Positions 8,461-20,892 of a stretch of 64,000 bases of DNA are shown piece after piece. A program made the position numbers and the translations under genes. Below the pieces are notes generated by a model. It was not told the origin of the DNA, did not search any database, and saw nothing but the letters and a program-made list of their open reading frames with translations. The first letter of the stretch is position 1, and each line of letters starts with the position of its first letter. The stretch is from Microtetraspora malaysiensis (lineage in GTDB: Bacteria > Actinomycetota > Actinomycetes > Streptosporangiales > Streptosporangiaceae). The DNA lies in NCBI RefSeq assembly GCF_001528665.1, contig NZ_BBYJ01000006.1, positions 434,001 through 498,000 on the forward strand, given 5' to 3'.

Positions 8461-9973
8461 GCCAATGCCGTTTAGTTAACGATCATTGTCTGGCTCGGGG
8501 TTGTCGGGGCAGCAGCGCGACGGTGGGCGGTCCTGCGTGCCGGATGCCCTTGTCAGAGGGGCGACGTTCTCTGTAGCTGCTGCGTCGGATGCGTTTGACG
8601 GCTCGGGGGTAGCTGCGGTGGCGGCGGGCGGGGTTGCGGTTGCGGGGCCGGCCGACCTGGTAGACGGTGCGGGTCCAAAGGTCGTCGTGGGGCTCAGGGG
8701 GAAAAGGCCGCCCGGTCGGTGACCGAGCGGCGCACGATGCGCAGGGTGGCCAGGAACTTGATCCGGTCGGGGTCGATCCCGGCGGTGGTGGCCGCGACGC
8801 AGATCAGGGTGGCCAGGGCCCAGTGGGTGAGGAGATAGGCCCAGATCTCCTGGCGCACCAGGTCGGGAGTGCGGGAGCGCAGGATCCGGCCCGGCCCACG
8901 CAGATGGGTCTTCAGCTGGTCGAACCCGGTTTCGGCTTCCCACCGCTGGTGGTAGCAGGAGGCCAGGTGCTCGGCGGTGGCCTCGGCCGGGTCGAGGATG
9001 CTGGTGATCAGCCTGATGTGGTCGCCTTTGCGATCGGGCACGGTGTAGTCGACCACCCGGACGACCATCGCCCGGTCGGGGTCGAGGGGCTGGCCCTGGC
9101 GGGCGTCTTCACGCAGCCGGTCCTTCTGTGACCTGTGCAGGCCGATCACGGGGTTGGTGATGACCGCGAGCCAGGATCCATCCTCTAGGTCCCGCAGCCA
9201 GTACGGGCGCAGCCCGGCCTGCACCCGCCACAGCAGCTGGGCGCCGCTACGGCTGGCCTGACCCCAGGCGTAGAAGCTGTAGAAGCCGCGATCGGCGAGC
9301 AGCAGCATGTCCTGCTCCAGCCGCTCATACAGGGAGTAGGCCAGGGTCTGTTCACCGTCCCAGCAGCCCGACACGTCTGCCGCGACGATCGCGTGACTGG
9401 CGCACTCGCTGATGGCCACGACCCGGGCCTGCGCAAATGCCGTCTCGTAGCCGCCCGCGCTGTCCTTGGGGAACTCCTCTAAGTTCGCCTCAGTGTCGGG
9501 CAGGTCGAGCACGAACCCGTCGATCGCCATCAGCCGCCACCTCCCCAGCCAGGCACCCGCCGTCGCCGGGGAGGCGGCTGGGCGGGCCACCCGCTCGAAC
9601 ACCTCCTTGACCGGCTCGGCACCCAACCGCTGCCGGGCCTGCGTCACCGCCCCTCGCGTCGGCGGCTCCCACCGCGAGCCCGGCATCCAGGCGAGCATCC
9701 CGGTCAGCTTCTCGGCGACCTCCTCGTAGTCATCGTCAGGAAACAGGCACAGCGCGATCAGGAGATAGACGACCACGTGCGCAGGGAGCTTCCGCACCCG
9801 CCGCTCACGGCACCCGTACTTCTCGATCGCCCCGTCCAGGACCTCCCGCGGCAGCAACGACGTCAACGCACCCAGCGCCACCAGATCCGTCAACCGGGAC
9901 GGCCCACCGGTCTTGATCCACTCCGCCACCAGCGGAAGCTATCAGCCCAAACCCCTATCTAAACGGCATTGGG
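8461..9973. mobile_element. Intact IS4-family insertion sequence
   Basis: About 1.51 kb with terminal inverted repeats: CCAATGCCGTTTAG at the left (8462-8475) and its reverse complement at the right (9959-9972). The target duplication GCCGTCAC flanks it at 8453-8460 and 9974-9981; depending on where the tips are drawn it is 8 or 9 bp. It holds one transposase gene on the minus strand. The 8461-8693 part has no convincing gene. It has inserted into copy A of the local inverted repeat, and the sequence rejoins cleanly when it is removed, so the insertion looks recent. Confidence 0.9.
8694..9929 (-). CDS. IS4-family transposase
   Basis: 411 residues from a GTG at 9929. The N-terminal part (WIKTGGPSRLTDLVALGALT to about residue 100) resembles the IS4 transposase N-terminal domain. 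The DDE catalytic core follows, with Asp in LMAIDGFVLDLPDT and Asp in LLADRGFYSFYAW. The family signature Y-x2-R-x3-E-x6-K is intact in YHQRWEAETGFDQLK. There is no frameshift or internal stop, so the element may be active. Transposases of this type cut and paste their own element via the terminal repeats. Confidence 0.93.
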   Translation of the reverse strand: MAEWIKTGGPSRLTDLVALGALTSLLPREVLDGAIEKYGCRERRVRKLPAHVVVYLLIALCLFPDDDYEEVAEKLTGMLAWMPGSRWEPPTRGAVTQARQRLGAEPVKEVFERVARPAASPATAGAWLGRWRLMAIDGFVLDLPDTEANLEEFPKDSAGGYETAFAQARVVAISECASHAIVAADVSGCWDGEQTLAYSLYERLEQDMLLLADRGFYSFYAWGQASRSGAQLLWRVQAGLRPYWLRDLEDGSWLAVITNPVIGLHRSQKDRLREDARQGQPLDPDRAMVVRVVDYTVPDRKGDHIRLITSILDPAEATAEHLASCYHQRWEAETGFDQLKTHLRGPGRILRSRTPDLVRQEIWAYLLTHWALATLICVAATTAGIDPDRIKFLATLRIVRRSVTDRAAFSP

Positions 9974-10089
9974 GCCGTCACCGGCTTGAAACTACACCTT
10001 GAATGGATACCTGACCTGCGATGAAGACTTTGCGGGTCACCCTTGGGACGCCCTGGCACCGATCACCAATAGTAACGTTTCGCCCACCC

Positions 10090-10114
10090 TAGCCAGTCTT
10101 GCTAGTCAGTCTTG
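10090..10114 (+). repeat. Tandem 12-bp direct repeat overlapping the -35 box
   Basis: TAGCCAGTCTTG (10090-10101) and TAGTCAGTCTTG (10103-10114) differ at one base and lie 13 bp apart. The second copy overlaps the first bases of the -35 hexamer of the peptide promoter, a natural place for a regulator to bind. Confidence 0.6.
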
Positions 10115-10141
10115 ACGTCCTCTTACTCTCTCGCATAAAGT
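10112..10141 (+). promoter_or_regulatory. Strong promoter of the six-cysteine peptide gene
   Basis: TTGACG (10112-10117) and TAAAGT (10136-10141) are 18 bp apart, near consensus for the housekeeping sigma factor. Initiation near 10148 would give a leader of about 85 bases. The region is clearly richer in A and T than the chromosome around it. Confidence 0.65.
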
Positions 10142-10198
10142 ACGATCATCGCAATCGGGGCAATCCACTAGTCAAACTCTCGAAAGTCGTAAACGCAC

Positions 10199-10213
10199 GG
10201 ACAATAATTGTCC
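10199..10213 (+). promoter_or_regulatory. Perfect palindrome next to the ribosome binding site
   Basis: GGACAATAATTGTCC has 7-bp arms about a central A. It ends immediately before the Shine-Dalgarno sequence AGAAAGGA (10214-10221). It could be an operator within the transcribed leader or a small RNA hairpin affecting translation; the sequence does not decide between these. Confidence 0.5.
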
Positions 10214-10232
10214 AGAAAGGAAAGTGAACGAT

Positions 10233-10445
10233 ATGAAGTTTGCCATCGGTCGCATTGCCGACCGTATCCTCGCGTCGTTCGTGCCGGAGTTGCGTGCGTC
10301 TGCCGCAGGAAAATGCGTGAGGTCGACCTGGTCGACGACCGTCGGGTGCCCGGGTACAGGTGTCAAGAAATGTACCGATTGGGAGGACTGCACTAGCGGC
10401 CGTGGCCTGGGTTACACATGCGAGCCATGTATCCCAATGGGGTGA
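10233..10445 (+). CDS. Six-cysteine small peptide, putative exported disulfide-rich precursor
   Basis: 70 residues from ATG 10233, chosen over GTG 10224 because the Shine-Dalgarno AGAAAGGA at 10214-10221 fits the ATG (about 9 bases after the virtual GGAGG) and would touch the GTG. Residues 1-24 are charged and amphipathic (IGRIADRILASFVPELRASA) without a Sec-type hydrophobic core, and end in ASA, a signal-peptidase-like site. The remaining ~46 residues carry Cys at 28, 39, 47, 53, 63 and 66, enough for three disulfides, plus Gly, Thr and Trp. It has its own promoter with repeat elements. Nearby are an S26 peptidase, ABC exporter, TlpA-like thioredoxin and MauE-like protein, with no lanthipeptide, lasso or radical-SAM enzymes. 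I do not recognise a named family. Role as antimicrobial or signal peptide is inference. Confidence 0.7.
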   Translation: MKFAIGRIADRILASFVPELRASAAGKCVRSTWSTTVGCPGTGVKKCTDWEDCTSGRGLGYTCEPCIPMG

Positions 10446-10564
10446 CCCGCAAAGTCTTCATCCGCTGGTCAGGCATCCATTCAGGGTGTAGTTTCAAGCC
10501 CGTGACGGCCAGAAGCCGGTGAGGATGGTGTTTGATCTCGCGGATAGCCGCGGCGATTCTCCGG
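10432..10564 (-). repeat. Copy B of the ~130-bp inverted repeat
   Basis: The reverse complement matches copy A (8401-8460 plus 9974-10048). It overlaps the last codons and the stop of the six-cysteine peptide gene. On the minus strand it reads RRIAAAIREIKHHPHRLL and then, a few residues on, LKLHPEWMPDQRMKTLRVTP without interruption. No function is recognised. It may be the residue of a mobile or duplicated unit. Confidence 0.75.
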
Positions 10565-10740
10565 GCGGGGCTGACGGACGAGCCCGATGGTGGTGTTACG
10601 GAGCGCAGCAATAAGGCGGGGCCGAGACCCGGTAGTGACAGCTGAGGCGTCTTCGCGGACCTCGTGAATTCATCGGCCATCGGGTGATCGTCATTTAGTG
10701 TCATATATGGTGAGAGGTGCCGCTCTGGCCTGGCATGATC

Positions 10741-11060
10741 TGGATTGTCTAGATCTCGATCCTGCGGGAGAACGGCACCTCGAAAGTGAAGCCTACGACA
10801 CCCGCCGGATTGCGGCGATAGATCAAGCGTGCTAAAGAACGGCGGCGTCGCCGGGAACTGGAAAAGCGTACGTCAGCGTGGTCGACAGGACTGGAGCTGA
10901 CCGACGGCGCCACCGGACTGGTCCCCGCCGCCGGTGTCCCCCTGCTCCGGCTGTTCGCCGAGAAATCCGGCCTGCGCGGCCACGCCTCCACGGCGCTGGC
11001 CGTGCCCGGGTTCCCGCCAGACGCGCGGCCTGACGCCGAATACGCCGATGAGCGGGTGAT
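10741..11060 (+). pseudogene. N-terminal transposase remnant, IS1380-like
   Basis: Bases from about 10788 translate to KPTTPAGLRR, an in-frame stop, then IKRAKERRRRRELEKR and further on GLVPAAGVPLLRLFAEK and GLRGHASTALAVPGF, like the N-terminus of IS1380-type transposases; this is from memory of the family, so the type is tentative. The homology stops near 11060 where a different transposase remnant begins. A 9-bp inverted repeat, GAGGTGCCG (10714-10722) and CGGCACCTC (10773-10781), lies just upstream and may be part of the old element end. Confidence 0.55.
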
Positions 11061-11772
11061 GGTGCAAAGGGCGGCGACAAGTTCCTGCCCGGCTGGCCCT
11101 ATAGCCTGCTGGTAGGCGTGCAGTGGGGAGACTCCTCCTGGGTGGACCCGATCGAGGCGCGCCGGCTCTGGCCGGGTGACGAGCACCGATGTCACCATCG
11201 AGCAGATCACCGGCTTGCTGGCCGACCCGGAGGTGGCCGGTCGGCTCACCGCGGCGATCCGCCGCCGCTGATCATGCTGGACGCCGGGAACTACGCCACC
11301 GACATCTCCCACGCGCTGGCCGACCGGTACGTTCAGGTCCTGGTCCGGCTGCGCGCCACCCGCGTCTTCTACGCCGACCCCGAACCCCGTCGGCCTTTCG
11401 ACCAAGAGCATTTCACCGGTTCGGCAGGGTCTATCTGGGCATGGCCCGCGCCCATCTGGCCTCGGCGCGAGCCGCCGATCGCTGGATGCATCTGATCATG
11501 GCCGCTACGCCCACCTCCGGCTGGCCAGCCCGCACGTCGACGACCTGCGCCGTCCCTGGCATCCACGTCCCCAACCGGGAAGACCGCTCAGCCCCTACCG
11601 GGTCCGCCTCGGCTTTCGCCGTCTCCGCGCAAAGCTCGGGACACCTGCCAGCTCGCCGATACTCACCCGACCCGGCCCCGGATGTCCCAAGGGGTCAAGG
11701 AACGGCCGAAGGACAAGCGTCCGCCCGCCTTACCGAAAGACCGTAACGACCAACAACGAACACCGAGAGTGA
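11061..11772 (+). pseudogene. C-terminal DDE transposase remnant with frameshifts
   Basis: Pieces in several frames give GGDKFLPGWPYSLLVG, WVDPIEARRLWPGDE, DVTIEQITGLLADPEVAGRL, LIMLDAGNYATDISHALAD and, near the end, GFRRLRAKLGTPASS then RPGPGCPKGSRNGR, with a stop at 11770-11772. This order and tail are those of large actinobacterial transposases of the IS701-like group. At least two frameshifts and loss of the N-terminal half make it non-functional. Both this and the preceding piece show that the island has accumulated several elements in turn. Confidence 0.7.
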
Positions 11773-11872
11773 CGTTAAATCGTAAGCTAAGGGTCGGTTC
11801 CGGGCGCGGATGGAGGGAGTCTCAGCGCCCGCGTCGGTACTGGTATGAAGGGCCGAATCGGGGGCCAGCCCG

Positions 11873-11901
11873 GGTTGCGGAAAGATGATGTTTCCACAAC
11901 C
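11873..11901 (+). promoter_or_regulatory. Hairpin in the mauE-like leader
   Basis: GGTTGCGGAAA (11873-11883) pairs with TTTCCACAACC (11891-11901), 11 positions with one mismatch and a 7-base loop. It ends 10 bases before the ribosome site of the MauE-like gene. Possible operator or RNA structure; weak evidence. Confidence 0.3.
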
Positions 11902-11921
11902 GACCTCGCCCGGAGGGTCCA

Positions 11922-12482
11922 ATGCACGATGTTATGCTCATTATCACGCCGATCATCGAGATCGCCGCCCGATCCGCACTGGTCCTCGTCTTCGCCATCG
12001 CGTCGTGGGCTAAGCTAACCGACCGGGAGCGCTATGCCGCTTTCGCTACATCACTTGGCGAGATGGGGGTTCTGCCCCGTCGACTTGTCCACTCAGCCGC
12101 CATGATTTCGGCCGCTGCCGAAGTGGTGACTGCCACACTTTTAGTGATTCCCGTCGATGCCGCAGGCACCGCTGGTTTCACACTTGCGGTGACGCTCTTC
12201 ACCGCCTTCACCGCTGCTATCGGCGTCTCGCTCAGGCGTGGCAATCGCGAGCCGTGTGCGTGCTTCGGGCGCTCCCAAACTCCCCTCGGGCGGATTCACA
12301 TTGTGCGGAACATCGGGTTGCTATCCATCGCTGTCCTCGGCCTCACGGCAACACACGCTGGTGGTGACGTGCCACCACCAGCGGCGTTCACCATCGCAAT
12401 AGCCGTAGGTCTCGTCCTCGGCCTCCTCGCAGTAATGGCAGACGACCTCGCGGGACTCCTTCGCGTCGAGCCTACTCCGTAG
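11922..12482 (+). CDS. MauE/DoxX-like redox-associated membrane protein
   Basis: 186 residues, ATG 11922 with GGAGGG five bases upstream. About five membrane segments (near residues 9-31, 54-77, 80-104, 124-145, 152-178). The motif EPCACFG with Cys112 and Cys114 sits in the loop before the fourth segment, as in MauE-type proteins that pass electrons to or from periplasmic thioredoxin-like partners and are needed for disulfide formation in methylamine dehydrogenase. No methylamine genes are here; instead a TlpA-like protein, a peptide exporter and a six-Cys peptide lie nearby, so I infer a role in forming the peptide's disulfides. Codon 74 (12141-12143) is TTA, rare in such genomes. The gene is flanked by IS debris on both sides. 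Confidence 0.85.
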   Translation: MHDVMLIITPIIEIAARSALVLVFAIASWAKLTDRERYAAFATSLGEMGVLPRRLVHSAAMISAAAEVVTATLLVIPVDAAGTAGFTLAVTLFTAFTAAIGVSLRRGNREPCACFGRSQTPLGRIHIVRNIGLLSIAVLGLTATHAGGDVPPPAAFTIAIAVGLVLGLLAVMADDLAGLLRVEPTP

Positions 12483-12490
12483 GTAGGAAT

Positions 12491-12518
12491 GAAGTTCGAC
12501 CAACGCCTCGCGAACTTC
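12491..12518 (+). terminator. Candidate terminator after the MauE-like gene
   Basis: GAAGTTCG (12491-12498) and CGAACTTC (12511-12518) form an 8-bp stem with a 12-base loop starting 9 bp after the stop. A second small hairpin (GATCAC / GTGATC, 12566-12582) follows. No T tract. Confidence 0.4.
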
Positions 12519-12936
12519 CGTCTCAAGCTGAGCGACGAGCGTTAGTAGTACTTCATTAACTTAACGATCACTTAGCGTGATCATTCTGAAAAGTCGCTTC
12601 GGAATCATGATCTCGCGACACCCGACGAGATGGCGCAGGTATGCCAACTGCTTGAGAAGTTCGCAGGTCAAATGTCGCGAAGAGTACTTCGTCGCCGCGA
12701 TCTGATGACGCCCTGTGATTTCGACTCCGACGCTTTCTGTGTGGAGGCGTTACGGTGTGTGATCAGATCGTGTTCAGGAATCGGATCTGGAGCAGGTCGC
12801 AGAACCGGAATACCACGGGGCAGTCGCATTTACATGCAGAAGGCCGCTAAAGTGCAATCACAGCGGACGCTGCCCGCTCGAAGCCCAAGCCACGCTCTGT
12901 AGCTGTTCCACAGAGAAAGCGTCAGAGCAGATTTCG
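12519..12936. other. Gene-poor, lower-GC stretch in the island
   Basis: No convincing gene. A 90-codon open frame at 12630-12902 on the plus strand has no ribosome site, no recognisable motif and actinomycete-unlike codon use, so I do not call it. Composition is visibly more A/T-rich than the flanking chromosome. Probably decayed foreign or IS-derived DNA. Confidence 0.5.
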
Positions 12937-13225
12937 CCGATCGTGTGGCATCTGACCGACGATCCGGGCCTATCTGAACGGCGAGCGGGTGCCGGGGCAA
13001 AGGCGGCGGAGCACAGCCGATCCGTTCGAGCCGTTCGCCGAGTGCTGTCGGCTGCGGCTGGATGCCGAGGTCGGGGATCCGCGGCTGTGGGCCACGACGC
13101 TGTTCGACGAGTTGATCGAGCTGGGAAATGGGGCAGCTATTCCACGGCACGGGGCAGAGCCGAGTGCGACCGTCTCCATCTCCCAGATGGCGCGGGAGAA
13201 GAACTGGTGCGCCCGCGACCAGTAA
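12937..13225 (+). pseudogene. IS21-type transposase (IstA) fragment
   Basis: Translation gives AYLNGERVPGQRRRSTADP followed by FEPFAECCRLRLDAEV and DPRLWATTLFDELIELG, which I recognise as the region following the helix-turn-helix of IS21-family IstA proteins. The upstream HTH part is frameshifted (WHLTDDPGLS then the NGERVPG frame), and downstream the reading degenerates and stops at 13223-13225. Only about 95 codons of a ~400-codon gene remain. The 187 bp from here to the S26 peptidase gene hold nothing I can identify. Confidence 0.65.
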
Positions 13226-13412
13226 CAGCGGCCCGCCAGCCCCGCAGTGCTCCACATCCCAGTGACCGTACGCGCACCCGAACTGCCCAAGGTGTAGGAA
13301 CCAGGACCACCGGCGCTTCCGTCTCTTCGGGCGGCGCGTTCCCCATTCAGGGAATTTTACGGAGCGTCATCAACGCCCGCCGCTTCCGATCATGAAAATG
13401 GCGAAACTTCAG

Positions 13413-13937
13413 TTAAGAGCCAGGTGGTTCTCTCCGATCGCGGTCATCCGCTCGAGCGCCAAGAGGTCCGATGTCCGATCTCCCGAACGGTCCAGAACCA
13501 ACCGGCCGGGAACGCGGGTCGAGCGGGCGGCGCGAAAACATGCGGCGGACTGCGCAGGCGTACACATCGGCTAGGGCGAAGGGACCATGGATCCGCGAGT
13601 CGAAGCTATGCGTGGTGTTGTCCCCGAGAAGGATCACCTGACCGGCGCGTACCGTTTCGCCCTCCCAGGTGTGGCCGGGCAGGGCGGCCACACGCTTCAC
13701 CAAGTAGCGCGTGATCCCACGGTGCCGTGGCGCGACAGCGCCGGGCGGCAATTCCTTGCCCCGGTTAACCACGGCGACGATGTCCCCCGCCCGGAGGTCG
13801 CGTCCGGCGACGCGCGCCGTGCCTCGCCGGTGACGTACTCGCCGGGCGAGCAACCGGTCGCCGTCGCGCAGGGTCGGTTCCATGCTAAGGCCTTCGACGG
13901 TGAGCACGGTGAGCCAGTAACCGAGCAGGCGCTTCAT
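13413..13937 (-). CDS. S26-family signal peptidase
   Basis: 174 residues. The catalytic Ser is in VEGLSMEPTLRDGD (Ser18) and the general-base Lys in RYLVKRVAALPG (Lys81); the conserved VILLGDNTTHSFDSR box and a second short domain follow. The short hydrophobic N-terminus (LLGYWLTVLTV) may dip into the membrane. The last ~40 residues are basic and poorly conserved-looking. Its ATG overlaps the stop of the ABC exporter gene (ATGA), so the two are translationally coupled. An S26 enzyme tied to an ABC exporter that lacks a peptidase domain suggests a dedicated leader peptidase; the ASA site of the six-Cys peptide nearby is a natural candidate substrate. That link is inference. Confidence 0.87.
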   Translation of the reverse strand: MKRLLGYWLTVLTVEGLSMEPTLRDGDRLLARRVRHRRGTARVAGRDLRAGDIVAVVNRGKELPPGAVAPRHRGITRYLVKRVAALPGHTWEGETVRAGQVILLGDNTTHSFDSRIHGPFALADVYACAVRRMFSRRPLDPRSRPVGSGPFGRSDIGPLGARADDRDRREPPGS

Positions 13938-15892
13938 CGGCTCCCCTCTCCCGCCGGGATCCCACCGTGCCCGGTGGGAGGCACACCAACAGCATTAGCG
14001 CCAACCTCCGCGGCGTCGGTGTAGCCAGCGGACTGGAGGCGGAACATGCGGGCGTACGTGCCGCCGGTCGCCATGAGTTGGTCGTGGGTGCCCTGCTCAG
14101 CGACGACCCCGTCACGCAGGACGACTATGAGATCGGCATCGCGGACTGTGTTGAGCCGGTGGGAGATGAGCAGGCTTGTACGTCCGGCGCGGTGAGCGCG
14201 CATGCGGGCGTGGACATCGGCCTCGGATTCTGGGTCCAGCCCAGATGACGGCTCGTCAAGGATCATCAGGTCGCGGTCGGCGCGCAAGAACGCCCGCGCG
14301 AGCGCGGTGCGCTGCCACTGGCCGCCGGAGAGCACCACGCCGGTCTCCGGATCGTCCTTGTCGGTCTCGGAGGTAAAGATCCGCGACAGCTGCGTCTCAT
14401 AGCCGCGAGGCAGGGCGTCGAGGACGTCGTCGATCCCGGCTCGCCGAGCGGCCACGCGGATCCGATCGAGATCGTGGAGGGCGTCGAGGGAGCCGAGGCC
14501 GACGTTCTCTCGGGCGGTCAGGTCGTACGTCATGTGGTCCTGGAAGACGCCGCTGATCCGGTCCCGTAGTGCGGCCGGATCCATGTCCCGCAGATCCACC
14601 CCGTCCCACGTGATCGAACCCTGCTGCGGATCGTAGAACCGCAGCACCAGCTTGACCAGCGTGGACTTGCCCGCCCCGTTCACTCCGACGATGCCCACCG
14701 TGGCCCCATGAGGGATCCGTAGCGAGACTCCGCGTAGGATCCACGGGTGGTCCGGCGAGTACCGAAACCAAACATCGCGCAGCTCCAACTCACTGGTGAG
14801 GGGCCGCAGCGGCGTCGGTACGGCCGGCACTGGCAGGTCGGGGGCAGCACGGACGATCGCCACGTGGTGGCTGAACATGAGCAACCCGCTGTACATCCTG
14901 CCCGCCTCGGAGATCAACGCAGCGGCCCCGCCGAGCATAGAACCTATGGCTATGGCGAACATCGACACATCCCCCACCGACAGGGATCCGGCGCGGGCGG
15001 CGAACGTTGCCCACACCAGACCGCCTGCGGAGATGACCGCACCCAGCGTGCCGAGCAGCCCCTTGGCGCGCAGCTCCCGACCGTCCATCCGCCGCCGCTC
15101 ACTGTTGATCAGTGTGAGTTCGCCCAGCAGCCGGTCGCGCAGCCAACCGCCGGTGCCGAACAACCGGATCTCCTTGGCCGCCCGGTAATCGGTGAGTAGC
15201 CCCCCGTAGAAGAAGTGCCGCCGTTCATGGGGCGACATGTCCATCATCATGAGGTTGCGCTGCTTGGACAGCTTCACCTGCACGATCAGGCCCGGCACCG
15301 CGGCCACCATGGCCACCAGCGTCATTACCGGCGACACCACCCATAACGCAGTTGCGAACCCGATCAGGCTGATCACCGACTCCACAGCCATAAACCCACC
15401 CGTGATAAGCGCCTCACCTGCCGCCGCCGCCTGCTGCCCCAGCCTGAGCCGGTCCAGCACGCCCGGATCTTCGAACCGTGCCAGCCCGGCGAACCGCACA
15501 GTCGCCGAGAACAGATCGGCTGCGGCCCGCACCGTGAACGCCCGCCCGAGGCAGCCTCCCAGATACTGCGACAGATGCGGCAGTCCGGCGGTCGCCACCG
15601 CGAGCACCCCCAACAGGCCCACCCGCCAGGCCAGCGCGGCCGGGGTGACCGCCGGGTCAGGGATCCCGTCTACCAATAGCTTCATCGCCCACGCAGACGC
15701 CACCGGGGCCAGACCCTGCACCACGACCACTAACGCGTACGCGGTCATCACTCCCGGCGCAGATTGCGCCGAAATCCGTACGATTTCGGCCAGCGAGGCG
15801 CCCAGCCCCGCCTCGTACAGCGCTGCGGCACCCTCATCACGCGCTGCTGCCCGCGGCGAGCCGAAGAGCTTCTCTGCGGCCTCAGGCTCCAT
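13934..15892 (-). CDS. ABC exporter (fused membrane and ATPase domains), peptide-export type
   Basis: 652 residues starting at ATG 15892; the frame is open further upstream but only as a shadow of the preceding gene. The N-terminal half has about six membrane segments; the ATPase half shows Walker A GVNGAGKSTLVKL, signature VLSGGQWQRTALARAF, Walker B LMILDEPSSGLDPE and the switch His in LLISHRLNTV. There is no N-terminal C39 cysteine peptidase domain, so leader removal must come from another protein; the S26 peptidase gene overlaps its 3' end. Its start overlaps the end of the TlpA-like gene by 11 bp. These three genes form one tight minus-strand operon. It resembles exporters of RiPP and bacteriocin clusters; the actual cargo is not shown by sequence. 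Confidence 0.9.
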   Translation of the reverse strand: MEPEAAEKLFGSPRAAARDEGAAALYEAGLGASLAEIVRISAQSAPGVMTAYALVVVVQGLAPVASAWAMKLLVDGIPDPAVTPAALAWRVGLLGVLAVATAGLPHLSQYLGGCLGRAFTVRAAADLFSATVRFAGLARFEDPGVLDRLRLGQQAAAAGEALITGGFMAVESVISLIGFATALWVVSPVMTLVAMVAAVPGLIVQVKLSKQRNLMMMDMSPHERRHFFYGGLLTDYRAAKEIRLFGTGGWLRDRLLGELTLINSERRRMDGRELRAKGLLGTLGAVISAGGLVWATFAARAGSLSVGDVSMFAIAIGSMLGGAAALISEAGRMYSGLLMFSHHVAIVRAAPDLPVPAVPTPLRPLTSELELRDVWFRYSPDHPWILRGVSLRIPHGATVGIVGVNGAGKSTLVKLVLRFYDPQQGSITWDGVDLRDMDPAALRDRISGVFQDHMTYDLTARENVGLGSLDALHDLDRIRVAARRAGIDDVLDALPRGYETQLSRIFTSETDKDDPETGVVLSGGQWQRTALARAFLRADRDLMILDEPSSGLDPESEADVHARMRAHRAGRTSLLISHRLNTVRDADLIVVLRDGVVAEQGTHDQLMATGGTYARMFRLQSAGYTDAAEVGANAVGVPPTGHGGIPAGEGSR

Positions 15893-16481
15893 GGGCGCTA
15901 GCCCGCTCGATCCCGCGCATCGAACGGTCAGACGTGCGGACGACCCCGCCAGCGTCCACCAGGAACACCAGCGGGAACCCGTCCACGGCGAACGCCTCCT
16001 GCAGCGGGCGGCCCTGCATTGTCTCCACAACTACCCTTGCCACTGGGGCGAGACGCTCCGCGTACGCCAGTGCGCCCTTCCCGTCGGCGCCGTCCACGAC
16101 CGCGACCACCTTTTCGCGGTCAAGGGTCGAGGCGTACGTGGTGAACACTGGTAGGAGCTCCTCGCACGGCTTGCAACCCGGGGAGAAGAAGCCGAGCAGT
16201 GTGCCGTCGCCCAGCCCGTCACGGGTCAGTTCGGCGCCCTCGTGATCCACGACCGTGAACTCCCCGGCCTGCTCCCCCGCTTGCACGTGGGTGTCGCCCA
16301 TGCCTGACCCGCCGCCCCGCTCCAGCAGGTGGTTGAGGCGCTCGGTGTGGACCCGCAGCCGGCGGATCACGGCGAACGTCAGCAGCAGGTTGAGCAGGCA
16401 GAGCAGGCCGACCAGGACGACGGCGGCGGCGAGATAACCCATGAAGAGCACCCAATCTGAGTAGTTTATGTACCCTTTCAA
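15882..16481 (-). CDS. Membrane-anchored TlpA-like thioredoxin
   Basis: 199 residues if started at TTG 16481; an ATG at 16442 (residue 14) is the alternative, and neither has a clear ribosome site. One membrane segment near residues 11-39, then a linker and a thioredoxin-like domain with active site SPGCKPCEELLP (Cys103, Cys106) and the cis-Pro loop DGFPLVFLVD. Such proteins reduce or oxidise disulfides outside the membrane, often with MauE or DsbD/CcdA-like partners. First gene of the minus-strand operon with the ABC exporter and S26 peptidase. An IS5-type remnant begins about 140 bp upstream, so the original promoter may have been lost or replaced. Confidence 0.85.
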   Translation of the reverse strand: MKGYINYSDWVLFMGYLAAAVVLVGLLCLLNLLLTFAVIRRLRVHTERLNHLLERGGGSGMGDTHVQAGEQAGEFTVVDHEGAELTRDGLGDGTLLGFFSPGCKPCEELLPVFTTYASTLDREKVVAVVDGADGKGALAYAERLAPVARVVVETMQGRPLQEAFAVDGFPLVFLVDAGGVVRTSDRSMRGIERASAHGA

Positions 16482-16619
16482 TATAGCTTGGGCAAATCCG
16501 GTAGATCTTTGTCTCGTTCGTGACGATCCTCCGCCGCTACCATGAGCACAGCAGGAATGGCGAGGTCAACTGATACGTGGTCAGAGGGTGTTTGATTCCA
16601 TAGGTTCCGTTTGATTGAA

Positions 16620-17117
16620 GTTATACGCCTCGCCAGGTAGGGGTGGATTCGTCGGTGAGGTGTCGGGCCATGAGGTCGAGGTCGATTATGGCCAGGTGGA
16701 TTACGGCTTCGGAACGGGCGGGCAGGACTTCGTAGTTGCGTGCCAGGCGGCGATGGAACATCAGCCAACCGAAGATGCGCTCCACGGCCCAGCGGCGTGG
16801 AAAGGAGTAAATCCCCTGGTCGCGGGGTCGCGGCGAACGACTTCCACATCGATGCCGAGCACGGCAGCGTGTTCGATGAGGGTGGTTCTGTGGGCGCTGT
16901 CGGCCCAGGCCTTGGTGATCGTCGGGTAGCGGCGGCGACAATTGTCAGCAGTTGCCGGCCAGCGGTGCCGTCGGACATGCTGGCGGCTGTGACCAGCACC
17001 GCGAGCAGCAGCCCAAGGGTGTCGGTGACGATGCTGCGCTTGCGGCCGACAATCTTCTTGCCAGAATCGATGCCGTGGGTGGATGCGGGCGCATTGGCCA
17101 AGGTCTTGACGCTCTAG
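16620..17117 (-). pseudogene. IS5-family transposase remnant
   Basis: Minus-strand pieces read ANAPASTHGIDSGKKIVGRK, LGLLLAVLVTAASMSDG and, after a frameshift, RWAVERIFGWLMFHRRLARN and HLTDESTPTWRG, the typical C-terminal half of IS5-type transposases of actinomycetes. The N-terminal half is missing and at least one frameshift separates the parts. It lies between the TlpA-like gene and the chromosomal ABC pair and marks the right edge of the island. Confidence 0.75.
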
Positions 17118-17269: not shown

Positions 17270-19066
17270 GTGTCACGCCCGGTCATGCCGTCACGATCAG
17301 GACCCACCTCAGACGCTCGAAAACCCTCCTGGTCCTCGCTGTGGCGGCTCAAGTCGTATCTGCGCCCCTACACCCGGCCGGTGGTCCTCATGTGGGCGGC
17401 GGCCGTGCTCGGCATCGCGGCCGCCATCCTGACCCCGCTCGTCGGCAAGGAGATCATCGATGGTCCGGTGGCGCACGGCGACCAGGACGCGCTGCTGCCG
17501 CTGGGGCTGCTCGCGCTCGCGCTCGGCGTGGCCGAGGCCCTGCTCACCTTCCTGCGCCGCTGGTCCCAGGCCGCCCCCGTGCTCGGCCTGGAGACGGCGA
17601 TCCGCGACGACCTGTACCGCCACCTGCAGCGCCTGCCGATGCGCTTCCACGACGAATGGCAGTCCGGGCAGCTCCTCTCCCGCGCGACCACGGACCTGTC
17701 CACGATCCGGCGGTTCCTCGGGTTCGGCGTGCTGTTCCTCGTCATGAACGTCCTCCAGCTCACCACCGTGACCGTGGTGCTGCTGCGGATGTACTGGCCG
17801 CTCGGCCTGCTCGTCGCCGGTTCGGCGATCCCCGTCATCATCCTGTCGAATCGCTTCGAGAAACGGTACATCCGCATCTCCCGCCAGGTGCAGGACGAGC
17901 AGGGCGACCTCGCCACCTTCGTCGAGGAGAGCGCCCTCGGCGTCCGCACGATCAAGGCGTTCGGACGGCGGCGCCACGTGGCCGCGACGTACGACGGCCT
18001 GGCGGGCAAGGTGTACCGCACCTCCCTGGAGAAGGTGCGGCTGTCCTCCCGGTTCTTCACCTTCCTGGAAGTGGTGCCGAACGTCACCCTCGCCATGGTG
18101 CTGCTCCTCGGCGCGCTCGCCGTCGGCGGCGGCTGGCTGACCCTGGGCACGCTGGTGGCCTTCACCACGCTGGTGCTCCAGCTCGTCTGGCCGGTCACCT
18201 CGCTCGGGTACATCCTGGCGATGGGCCAGGAGGCCATGACGTCGGCGGACCGGGTCGTCGAGGTGCTCGACACCGTGCCCGAGATCGACGGCGGGGCGCA
18301 GGTCGTCGCCGAGCCGCGCGGCCACCTGCGTTTCGAGGGCGTCGGCTTCCGGTTCCCCGGCGCCGAGCGGCCCGTGCTGCGCGACGTCTGGCTTGAGGTG
18401 GAGCCGGGAGAGACCATAGCCATCGTCGGCGCGACCGGCTCGGGCAAGACCACGCTCACCGCGCTGGTGCCGCGGCTGGTCGACGTCACGGCCGGGCGCG
18501 TCACCGTCGACGGGCACGACGTGCGCGACCTGTCCCTGCCCTCGCTGCGTTCGGTGGTCGCCACCGCCTTCGAGGAGGCCACGCTGTTCTCGATGAGCGT
18601 CCGGGAGAACCTCACCCTCGGCCGCGGGGACGCCACCGACGAGGAGATCCGCGCCGCGCTGGAGATCGCCCAGGCCACCTTCGCGTACGACCTGCCCTGG
18701 GGGCTGGACACCCGCATCGGCGAGCAGGGCATGTCCCTGTCCGGCGGCCAGCGGCAGCGGCTCGCCCTGGCCCGCGCGGTGCTCGGCCGGCCCCGGATCC
18801 TCGTCCTGGACGACACCCTCTCGGCGCTCGACGTGGAGACCGAGGCCCTGGTCGAGGAGGCGTTGCGCGCCGTCCTCGCCGACGCCACCGGCCTCGTCGT
18901 CGCGCACCGGGCCTCGACCGTGCTGCTCGCCGACCGGGTCGCGCTCCTGCAGGACGGCACCATCACCCACGTCGGCCGCCACGCGGACCTGCTGGCCGAG
19001 GTCCCCGAATACCGGGCGCTCCTCGCGCAGGACGCCGATCTCGACCAGGAGGAGGCACTGCGGTGA
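17270..19066 (+). CDS. ABC exporter half-transporter, first of a pair
   Basis: 598 residues from GTG 17270, or 593 from ATG 17285; AGGTGAGGAG lies at 17261-17270, a little too close for the first and a little far for the second. Six membrane segments, then an ATPase domain with Walker A GATGSGKTTLTAL, canonical signature SLSGGQRQRLALARAV, and Walker B ILVLDDTLSALD. The residue after the Walker B Asp is Asp, not the catalytic Glu. With the partner's altered signature this is the pattern of a heterodimeric exporter with one degenerate and one active ATP site. It overlaps the next gene by four bases (GTGA). Substrate (drug, lipid or other) is not determined by sequence. Confidence 0.92.
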   Translation: MSRPVMPSRSGPTSDARKPSWSSLWRLKSYLRPYTRPVVLMWAAAVLGIAAAILTPLVGKEIIDGPVAHGDQDALLPLGLLALALGVAEALLTFLRRWSQAAPVLGLETAIRDDLYRHLQRLPMRFHDEWQSGQLLSRATTDLSTIRRFLGFGVLFLVMNVLQLTTVTVVLLRMYWPLGLLVAGSAIPVIILSNRFEKRYIRISRQVQDEQGDLATFVEESALGVRTIKAFGRRRHVAATYDGLAGKVYRTSLEKVRLSSRFFTFLEVVPNVTLAMVLLLGALAVGGGWLTLGTLVAFTTLVLQLVWPVTSLGYILAMGQEAMTSADRVVEVLDTVPEIDGGAQVVAEPRGHLRFEGVGFRFPGAERPVLRDVWLEVEPGETIAIVGATGSGKTTLTALVPRLVDVTAGRVTVDGHDVRDLSLPSLRSVVATAFEEATLFSMSVRENLTLGRGDATDEEIRAALEIAQATFAYDLPWGLDTRIGEQGMSLSGGQRQRLALARAVLGRPRILVLDDTLSALDVETEALVEEALRAVLADATGLVVAHRASTVLLADRVALLQDGTITHVGRHADLLAEVPEYRALLAQDADLDQEEALR

Positions 19067-20892
19067 GCGTGGAAGCGACCGGGGACGGCTGGCGCGGCGT
19101 CGCCGCGGAGGAGCAGGACCATCTCTCCGACCGGGTGTCGCTCCTGCTGCGTACCCGCTCACGCCGGCTGCTCGGCGACCTGCTCCGCCCGCACCGGCGC
19201 GGCATGGCGCTGCTGGTCGCGATCATCGTGCTGTCCAGCGCCGCCGGGCTGGCCATCCCGTACCTCGTCGCGGTCGGCATCGACGACGGCATCCCGCCGA
19301 TGCTGCGCGGCGGCGGGCCCGGGACGCTGTTCGTCATCGTCGCCGCGGTCGTCGCGGCCGCGCTGACCCAGGCGCTCACCCGGCAGGCGTTCCTGCGGCT
19401 GTCCGGCCGCATCGGCCAGGACATCCTGCTCGAACTCCGCCGCCGCGTCTTCGACCACTTCCAGCGGCTGTCCCTGTCGTTCCACGAGAAGTACACCTCC
19501 GGGCGGGTGATCTCGCGGCTCACCTCGGACGTCGAGGCGATCGCCGAGCTGCTGGCGTCCGGCCTGGACGGGCTGGTCACGGCGGTGCTCACGCTGGTCG
19601 GCACCGCGGCCATGCTGCTCCTGCTCGACGCGCACCTCGCCGTGGTCGCGCTGCTGCCGCTGCCCCTGCTGCTGCTGTTCACCCGCTGGTTCCGGCGCGG
19701 GTCCAGCGTCACCTACCGCAGGACCAGGGAGACCGTCGCCCTGGTCATCGTCCACTTCGTCGAGTCGATGACCGGCATCCGCGCGGTCCAGGCGTTCCGC
19801 AGGGAGCCGCGCAACCAGGAGATCTTCGAGCGGCTCAACCAGGACTACCGCGACGCCAACATGCGCGGCATGCGCCTCGTCGCGGTCTTCATGCCCGGCG
19901 TCAAGCTGATCGGCAACGTGACCGTGGCCGCGGTCCTGCTGTACGGCGGATGGCTCGCGCTGCACGACGCCGTCACCGTCGGCGTGCTGGCCGCGTTCCT
20001 GCTCTACCTGCGCCAGTTCTACGAGCCCATGCAGGAGATCAGCCAGTTCTACAACACGCTCCAGTCGGCGAGCGCGGCGCTGGAGAAGCTGTCCGGGGTG
20101 CTGGAGGAGGAGCCCGCCGTCGCCGAGCCCCGCCACCCCGCGGCCCTGCCGTACGCGAAGGGGGCGGTGCGGTTCGAGGCGGTCGAGTTCGCCTACCCGG
20201 ACGGGCCTCCGATCATCCCGGCGCTCGATCTGGAGCTCCCGGCCGGGCAGACCATGGCGGTGGTCGGCACCACGGGCGCGGGCAAGACCACCCTGGCCAA
20301 GCTGATCTCCCGGTTCTACGACCCGGTGGACGGCCGCGTCCTGCTCGACGGGGTGGACCTGCGCGACCTCGACGAGGCCGCGCTGCGCCGCTCGGTGGTC
20401 ATGGTCACCCAGGAGAACTTCCTGTTCTCCGGCACGATCGCCGAGAACATCAGGTTCGGACGTCCGGACGCCACCGACGAGGAGGTGGTCGCCGCCGCCC
20501 GCGCGATCGGGGCGCACGCGTTCGTCGCGGCGCTGCCGGACGGCTACGACACCCAGGTCGGCAAGCGCGGTGGCCGGATGTCGGCCGGGCAGCGCCAGCT
20601 TGTGGCCTTCGCGCGGGCGTTCCTCGCCGACCCGGCGGTCCTCATCCTCGACGAGGCGACCTCCAGCCTCGATGTGCCGAGCGAGCGGCTGGTCCAGCGG
20701 GCGCTGCGCACCATCCTCGCGGACCGGACCGCCGTGATCATCGCGCATCGGCTGTCCACCGTGGAGATCGCTGACCGCGTGCTCGTCATGGAGGGCGGCC
20801 GCGTGGTCGAGGACGGCCCGCCGCAGCGGCTGATCGCCGGAGCGGGCCGATTCGCCCGCCTGCACCGCGCCTGGGTCGAGAGCCTCGCCTGA
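19063..20892 (+). CDS. ABC exporter half-transporter, second of a pair
   Basis: 609 residues, GTG 19063 coupled to the end of its partner. Six membrane segments, then Walker A GTTGAGKTTLAKL, Walker B AVLILDEATSSLD with the catalytic Glu present, and His in IIAHRLSTVEIADRV. The signature is MSAGQRQLVAF instead of LSGGQ. Its Walker sites paired with the partner's good signature would form the active ATP site. It is followed by an intergenic stretch holding a minus-strand tRNA-like gene. Together with the upstream half it forms a complete exporter of the multidrug type. Confidence 0.92.
   Translation: MSVEATGDGWRGVAAEEQDHLSDRVSLLLRTRSRRLLGDLLRPHRRGMALLVAIIVLSSAAGLAIPYLVAVGIDDGIPPMLRGGGPGTLFVIVAAVVAAALTQALTRQAFLRLSGRIGQDILLELRRRVFDHFQRLSLSFHEKYTSGRVISRLTSDVEAIAELLASGLDGLVTAVLTLVGTAAMLLLLDAHLAVVALLPLPLLLLFTRWFRRGSSVTYRRTRETVALVIVHFVESMTGIRAVQAFRREPRNQEIFERLNQDYRDANMRGMRLVAVFMPGVKLIGNVTVAAVLLYGGWLALHDAVTVGVLAAFLLYLRQFYEPMQEISQFYNTLQSASAALEKLSGVLEEEPAVAEPRHPAALPYAKGAVRFEAVEFAYPDGPPIIPALDLELPAGQTMAVVGTTGAGKTTLAKLISRFYDPVDGRVLLDGVDLRDLDEAALRRSVVMVTQENFLFSGTIAENIRFGRPDATDEEVVAAARAIGAHAFVAALPDGYDTQVGKRGGRMSAGQRQLVAFARAFLADPAVLILDEATSSLDVPSERLVQRALRTILADRTAVIIAHRLSTVEIADRVLVMEGGRVVEDGPPQRLIAGAGRFARLHRAWVESLA

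Follow-up and report, generated by a model that had tools for sequence, protein, structure and literature searches.

Introduction

Among described bacterial peptides, the staphylococcal TMcin (TmcA/TmcD/TmcP; PMC13252029) is a leader-bearing bacteriocin that, apart from losing its leader, is modified only by a disulfide, which a dedicated oxidoreductase introduces. Its product is a transmembrane helix with one disulfide, the oxidoreductase TmcD is of the DsbA type, and TmcP is an S2P-type zinc protease (PMC13252029). In actinobacteria, the main text of the machine-learning survey decRiPPter (Kloosterman et al., 2020; PMC7794033) describes three mauE-containing Streptomyces families of candidate ribosomally synthesized and post-translationally modified peptides (RiPPs), one of them also with MauD. 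Each predicted precursor has at least eight cysteines, and the families are uncharacterised. Here we describe a locus in a 64,000-nucleotide stretch (G000:C6:434001-498000; "the window" denotes this whole stretch) of the 8.8 Mb genome of Microtetraspora malaysiensis, in which a six-cysteine peptide is encoded near a MauE-type membrane protein, a TlpA-like thioredoxin, an ATP-binding cassette (ABC) exporter and an S26 signal-peptidase-type protein. Very probably, the locus belongs to a widespread and apparently unnamed actinobacterial family, dedicated to the biosynthesis and export of leader-bearing peptides with disulfides as their only modification.

Results

The original prediction, made from the window alone, had proposed a 70-residue peptide with six cysteines, and this peptide is present. 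When a hidden Markov model (HMM) of the leader was trained without the window, the peptide was the single significant match among 1,014 open reading frames (ORFs) of the window (E-value 2.4e-7). A Shine-Dalgarno-like AAAGGAAAG lies upstream of its ATG. The host genome as a whole contains exactly three clear precursor matches, this peptide among them, and three exporters of the cluster kind. The leaders of the family follow the approximate consensus MxxxxxxLGDRLLxxLVPKATAxA, in which P18, A22 and A24 are invariant across 54 precursors, and terminate in an invariant A-x-A (AxA). The cores are Cys-rich and polar; in precursors collected with a regular expression they are mostly 31-53 residues long, with the first cysteine mostly 0-4 residues in, and only 2 of 88 leaders contain a cysteine. 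Pairwise identity is 41% in the leaders versus 11% at core positions outside the shared cysteines. A short precursor with a conserved leader, a variable core, and export and processing genes as neighbours is what defines a RiPP, or a leader-bearing bacteriocin in the broad sense, and this is the arrangement found here. Comparison of the peptides with Pfam, NCBIfam, PADLOC and PDB sequences returned no usable match, one member resembling a defensin model weakly (E-value 0.006).

A tblastn search with the peptide alone over 151 genomes of the host's family gave mostly noise, its matches being informative only where they adjoined the ABC gene. The same genomes were searched with the exporter, an ortholog of which was found in 56 of them at an E-value of 1e-118 or better, often in several copies. 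From this search 80 loci were taken, 81 with the window, and a leader-pattern scan detected a short leader-bearing Cys-rich precursor at 68 of the 81. Named bacterial genomes were scanned with an exporter alignment, which gave a second set of 80 loci, comprising 41 orthologs (at least 550 bits) and 39 other ABC exporters that served as controls. Precursors at these loci were called with the leader HMM from the host's family, with which the named genomes partly overlap; Streptomyces, Micromonospora, Amycolatopsis, Lentzea, Nocardiopsis, Embleya and Rhizocola lie outside it. A precursor was found at 36 of the 41 orthologous loci, TlpA at 39, S26 at 38 and MauE at 31, whereas none of the 39 controls had a precursor, TlpA or S26, and only one had MauE. 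The original prediction had named homologous gene sets consistently lacking a small Cys-rich gene as the observation that would count against it; the counts above show the opposite. In a class-wide sample, the exporter occurred in 23 of 297 genomes.

The usual gene order is regulator, peptide(s), MauE, TlpA, ABC and S26 on one strand. Public annotation independently shows the same order on plasmids from Streptomyces atratus, S. clavuligerus and other members of the genus, with the precursor labelled "hypothetical protein". A regulator of the SARP/BTAD type, typical of secondary metabolism, recurs at 48 of 122 loci. TlpA, MauE, ABC, S26 and regulators are the only recurrent neighbours at the loci and on the annotated plasmids; no modification enzyme of a known RiPP class is found among them, as the original prediction had stated for the window, and neither are mau structural genes among annotated or recurrent neighbours.

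Several individual loci deserve mention. The complete peptide-MauE-TlpA-ABC-S26 set, with an eight-Cys core, is found outside Actinomycetota in a metagenome-assembled genome of the cyanobacterium Komarekiella atlantica (L203), which could reflect either horizontal transfer or an older origin. One cluster (L136, 3279-9162) encodes at least six different precursors with six-Cys cores in common and would suit a study of core diversification. The large plasmid of S. clavuligerus holds the system with two precursors (L263, 6192-6398 and 6484-6684) annotated simply as hypothetical proteins, and one S. viridosporus strain carries it as well (L201). At L176 and L132 the orthologous exporter has no TlpA, MauE, S26 or precursor nearby; these are possibly solitary exporters or lost clusters.

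All 88 cores collected with the regular expression contain 4, 6, 8 or 10 cysteines. Parity played no part in their selection; three spurious matches, out-of-frame ORFs without a real leader, were removed by eye, and two of these had three cysteines. The precursors at L070, L095, L116 and L121, missed by the regular expression, were added by eye, and a three-Cys match at L197, which resembles a frameshifted ORF, was excluded. In the resulting curated set, which includes the named-genome and plasmid loci, the number of core cysteines is even in 138 of 138 precursors (about 94 non-redundant), compared to 64% of 715 other ORFs from the same loci that contain four or more cysteines. Combined with the conserved leader and the variable core, this is, on sequence grounds, the pattern expected of leader-directed, diversifying, fully disulfide-paired products. 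A product of about 46 residues with three disulfides had been proposed for the window; exactly 46 residues follow the AxA, and their six cysteines could pair in this way.

The proteins encoded beside the precursor retain their catalytic motifs. The window MauE, proposed as such from the start, scores 84 bits against PF07291 (gathering score 27) and matches a family-specific HMM at an E-value of 7e-60; C112 and C114 of its CxC-F-G motif are invariant in 19 relatives. Its AlphaFold2 (AF2) model (pLDDT 93) had no significant match in a Foldseek search of the PDB. With VIA-align, NACHO/TMEM35A came first at Z 12.3 and VKOR reached only Z 6; since common helical bundles give Z values of this order, no function was assigned from that match. 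In TlpA the CxxC is invariant in 25 relatives, and while Pfam thioredoxin scores for the window protein are weak, its AF2 model (pLDDT 92) resembles ResA/TlpA-type structures (E-values of about 1e-7 to 1e-6). The window exporter is 46-62% identical to 20 relatives, and no C39 domain was found on it in the Pfam scan. The window S26 protein lies above the cut-off for NCBIfam signal peptidase I, and the Ser-Lys dyad of type I signal peptidases (S18, K81) is invariant in 20 sequences. It also matches TIGR02754, the model of the nickel superoxide dismutase maturation protease, at an E-value of 6e-6, under the model cut-off. Only 17 residues precede Ser18, leaving no space for the usual N-terminal transmembrane (TM) helix.

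TlpA, ABC and S26 form a minus-strand operon with overlapping starts and stops, the S26 start overlapping the ABC stop (Table 1). The operon had been proposed at 13413-16481, with an exporter lacking C39. Its genes and the exporter type stand, and two starts have been refined. For TlpA, ATG 16442 appears best placed: TTG 16481 falls at the border of a transposase remnant, and the ATG matches the starts of relatives. The exporter is better started at ATG 15892. Beside the operon lie two adjacent ABC exporter ORFs, 17270-19066 and 19063-20892 (window positions), with profile scores of 174 and 237 bits; judged by sequence they are not orthologous to the cluster exporter and are possibly an ordinary efflux pair.

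Table 1. Positions of the system's genes and of flanking insertion sequence (IS) features in the window
Feature	Position	Strand	Basis or remark
Precursor peptide gene, 70 aa, six Cys	ATG 10233 to TGA 10445	+	Leader HMM
Leader of the precursor, MKFAIGRIADRILASFVPELRASA	10233-10304	+	Followed by the 46-aa core
Core of the precursor, 46 aa, six Cys	10305-10442	+	
MauE-type membrane protein, CxCFG motif (C112, C114)	11922-12482	+	Pfam PF07291, E-value 1.5e-23
S26 signal-peptidase-type leader peptidase	13413-13937	-	NCBIfam; Ser18 and Lys81
ABC exporter, membrane + ATPase half-transporter, 652 aa	13934-15892 (ATG 15892)	-	Pfam/NCBIfam; relatives
TlpA/MauD-like membrane-anchored thioredoxin, CKPC motif	15882-16442	-	CxxC; AF2 fold match
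IS4-type transposase	8694-9929		
IS4-type element end left of the peptide gene	9948-10036	-	Inverted copy of 10446-10534, 84% match
IS remnant that provides the peptide gene with its final codons and stop	10440-10565	+	Inverted repeat; alignment
DDE_Tnp_1 transposase remnant directly upstream of TlpA	16478-17101	-	At the peptide/MauE position of relatives

Discussion

Our findings suggest a dedicated route for disulfide-only peptides. The conserved leader, which is not of the Sec type, would direct the precursor to the membrane machinery, where the TlpA-like thioredoxin would pair the core cysteines by oxidation. MauE would re-oxidise TlpA and pass the electrons on to quinone, S26 would cleave the leader after AxA, and the ABC exporter, having no peptidase of its own, would secrete the product. 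The redox relay and the cleavage are proposed by analogy with the roles of these protein families elsewhere. The secreted products would be small bacteriocin-like peptides, with a presumed biological activity.

Several points weigh against this interpretation. It is built on genes, from which the product, its disulfides and its activity are all predicted. No immunity gene recurs in the neighbourhoods of 122 loci. At the thresholds used, 13 of 81 and 5 of 41 loci have no precursor, with weak candidates present at L199 and L212. About a quarter of loci have no MauE close to the operon, so that the protein may be dispensable or come from another source. Oxidation before export would also have to take place in the actinobacterial cytoplasm, normally a reducing compartment. 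In the window itself, the peptide and MauE keep their usual mutual order on the strand opposite to TlpA-ABC-S26, IS remnants lie between the peptide and MauE and adjoin TlpA, and the peptide gene owes its final codons and its stop to an IS.

The side of the membrane on which the putative maturation would occur was assessed by the positive-inside rule, counting lysines and arginines (K/R) around TM helices. TlpA proteins carry on average 0.06 K/R ahead of the TM helix versus 4.02 behind it, a pattern seen in 113 of 115. In MauE the counts are 5.2 in loop 1, 4.4 in the CxC loop and 0.1-0.2 in the other loops. S26 proteins average 0.64 ahead and 2.78 behind; 56 of 64 show this reversed pattern, and the window copy has no room for a TM helix, so the N-in/C-out anchor of signal peptidases is not predicted for any of these. 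By contrast, the two housekeeping signal peptidases of the host genome have four K/R ahead of the TM helix and 0-1 behind. The charges thus predict that the thioredoxin domain of TlpA, the CxC loop of MauE and the majority of S26 proteases face the cytoplasm, opposite to their housekeeping counterparts. A further internal contrast lies some 5.2 kb to the left of the window (G000:C6:428387-428788, L281), where the gene of a housekeeping MauE-family protein precedes that of a DsbA-type protein whose N-terminus is strongly basic and whose charge pattern is normal. This MauE, 17 kb upstream, was considered as a member of the system and rejected, its partner being the housekeeping DsbA-type protein.

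Given these inside-facing charges, the peptide may be oxidised and freed of its leader before it is exported. The original prediction that the parts supply disulfide formation, export and leader removal is supported, with the first and last of these predicted at the cytoplasmic face and not outside. We regard oxidation and cleavage before export as evenly balanced, since the orientation is predicted and is at odds with a reducing cytoplasm. A specific arrangement, in which the MauE-TlpA relay is inverted, S26 is inverted or lacks an anchor, both act on the cytoplasmic face, and the ABC exporter secretes an already folded peptide, is put forward tentatively, at slightly less than even odds. If true, it would be a bacterial pathway forming disulfides within a reducing cytoplasm, an unusual arrangement for bacteria. 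A possible precedent, cited in PMC12453122, is the work of Hibender et al. (2017) on the topology of the Aeropyrum VKOR and on disulfide formation in two compartments.

The same system working entirely outside has close to an even chance of being correct: the exporter would secrete a reduced precursor, outward-facing TlpA and MauE would oxidise it, and an outward-facing S26 would trim the leader. This would follow the established logic of type I signal peptidases and of Dsb systems (DsbA/VKOR) on the oxidising extracellular side, and MauE and MauD of methylamine dehydrogenase maturation likewise serve an exported subunit (role summarised in PMC7794033). Standing against it are the charges behind the TM helices of TlpA and S26 and in the MauE CxC loop, the normal charges of the housekeeping proteins in the very same genome, and the anchorless window S26.

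A second alternative concerns the window copy and not the family. Inverted IS ends (9948-10036 and 10440-10534) flank the peptide gene, and an IS4-type transposase, a DDE_Tnp_1 remnant and an IS-end inverted repeat confirm that, as had been noted, transposase remnants separate the pieces. The suggestion that the original cluster was more compact is supported by the single-strand peptide-MauE-TlpA-ABC-S26 order usual elsewhere, and in the simplest history, IS activity would have split the operon between MauE and TlpA and inverted one half. MauE may also have joined the window locus separately, since no MauE adjoins the exporter in its nearest relatives (L126-L131), save for a second system in L129. 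The split and inversion, and the IS-derived last codons, with which the native C-terminus may have been altered, mean that the window copy may be impaired. That it is a dead relic, a complete system broken by insertion sequences and making no product, is a serious possibility that we nevertheless rate below even: transposase remnants mark each junction, one of them directly upstream of TlpA, and S26 lacks the usual TM anchor and has a long tail, but all five ORFs are open, the catalytic motifs and all six cysteines are intact, the start/stop overlaps of TlpA-ABC-S26 persist, and the exporter is still 62% identical to its nearest relative.

It is improbable that the cysteines are not, or not only, disulfide-paired, TlpA and MauE keeping them reduced in a metal-binding or otherwise modified core, for although TlpA-type proteins with a CxxC other than CPHC are often reductants and Cys-rich peptides can bind metals, the strictly even cysteine number with variable spacing is expected for disulfides and not for a fixed metal site, and the neighbourhoods show no recurrent enzyme related to metals or to modification.

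The favoured reading, a family of exported disulfide-only peptides, defines by sequence a set of natural-product-like peptides with about 94 distinct cores, often with several clusters per genome, which the family libraries searched do not recognise. Multiple disulfides would lend them stability; together with the hypervariable cores, this would recommend them as candidate antibiotics or signals, and genomes can be mined for such peptides with the leader profile. The predicted inside-facing oxidation machinery poses a directly testable question.

Comparison with Known Systems

No named class for these peptides was found in open papers, subscription literature lying outside the scope of the search. 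The original description of the system as "undescribed" holds in the sense of uncharacterised and unnamed, not of wholly unseen, because MauE-linked, Cys-rich candidate RiPPs of Streptomyces appear in the main text of PMC7794033. Those families, compared by their main-text description, share with ours a MauE, once with MauD, beside a Cys-rich predicted precursor in actinobacteria, and they probably overlap with it. Unlike the present family, they are predictions within one genus, and a shared leader, AxA, even-Cys rule or identity of S26 and ABC proteins is absent from that main text.

Methylamine dehydrogenase maturation likewise employs MauE and a membrane-anchored thioredoxin for a disulfide-rich small polypeptide, but its substrate is a conserved enzyme subunit, and it has neither an ABC exporter nor S26, nor does it serve variable peptides. 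Double-glycine bacteriocins resemble our system in having a leader peptide, an ABC exporter and Cys-containing cores; they differ in that their leaders end in GG and C39 is part of the transporter, whereas here the leader ends in AxA, the exporter has no C39 and S26 is a separate protein. The nickel superoxide dismutase maturation protease is an S26 enzyme that acts inside the cell and, like the window S26, is anchorless; its substrate and gene context differ. TMcin is set apart by the TM helix of its mature peptide and its DUF3267 protease, in place of which we find polar Cys-rich cores and an S26 peptidase. It is nevertheless the closest worked-out analogue of disulfide-only maturation, achieved by different enzymes.

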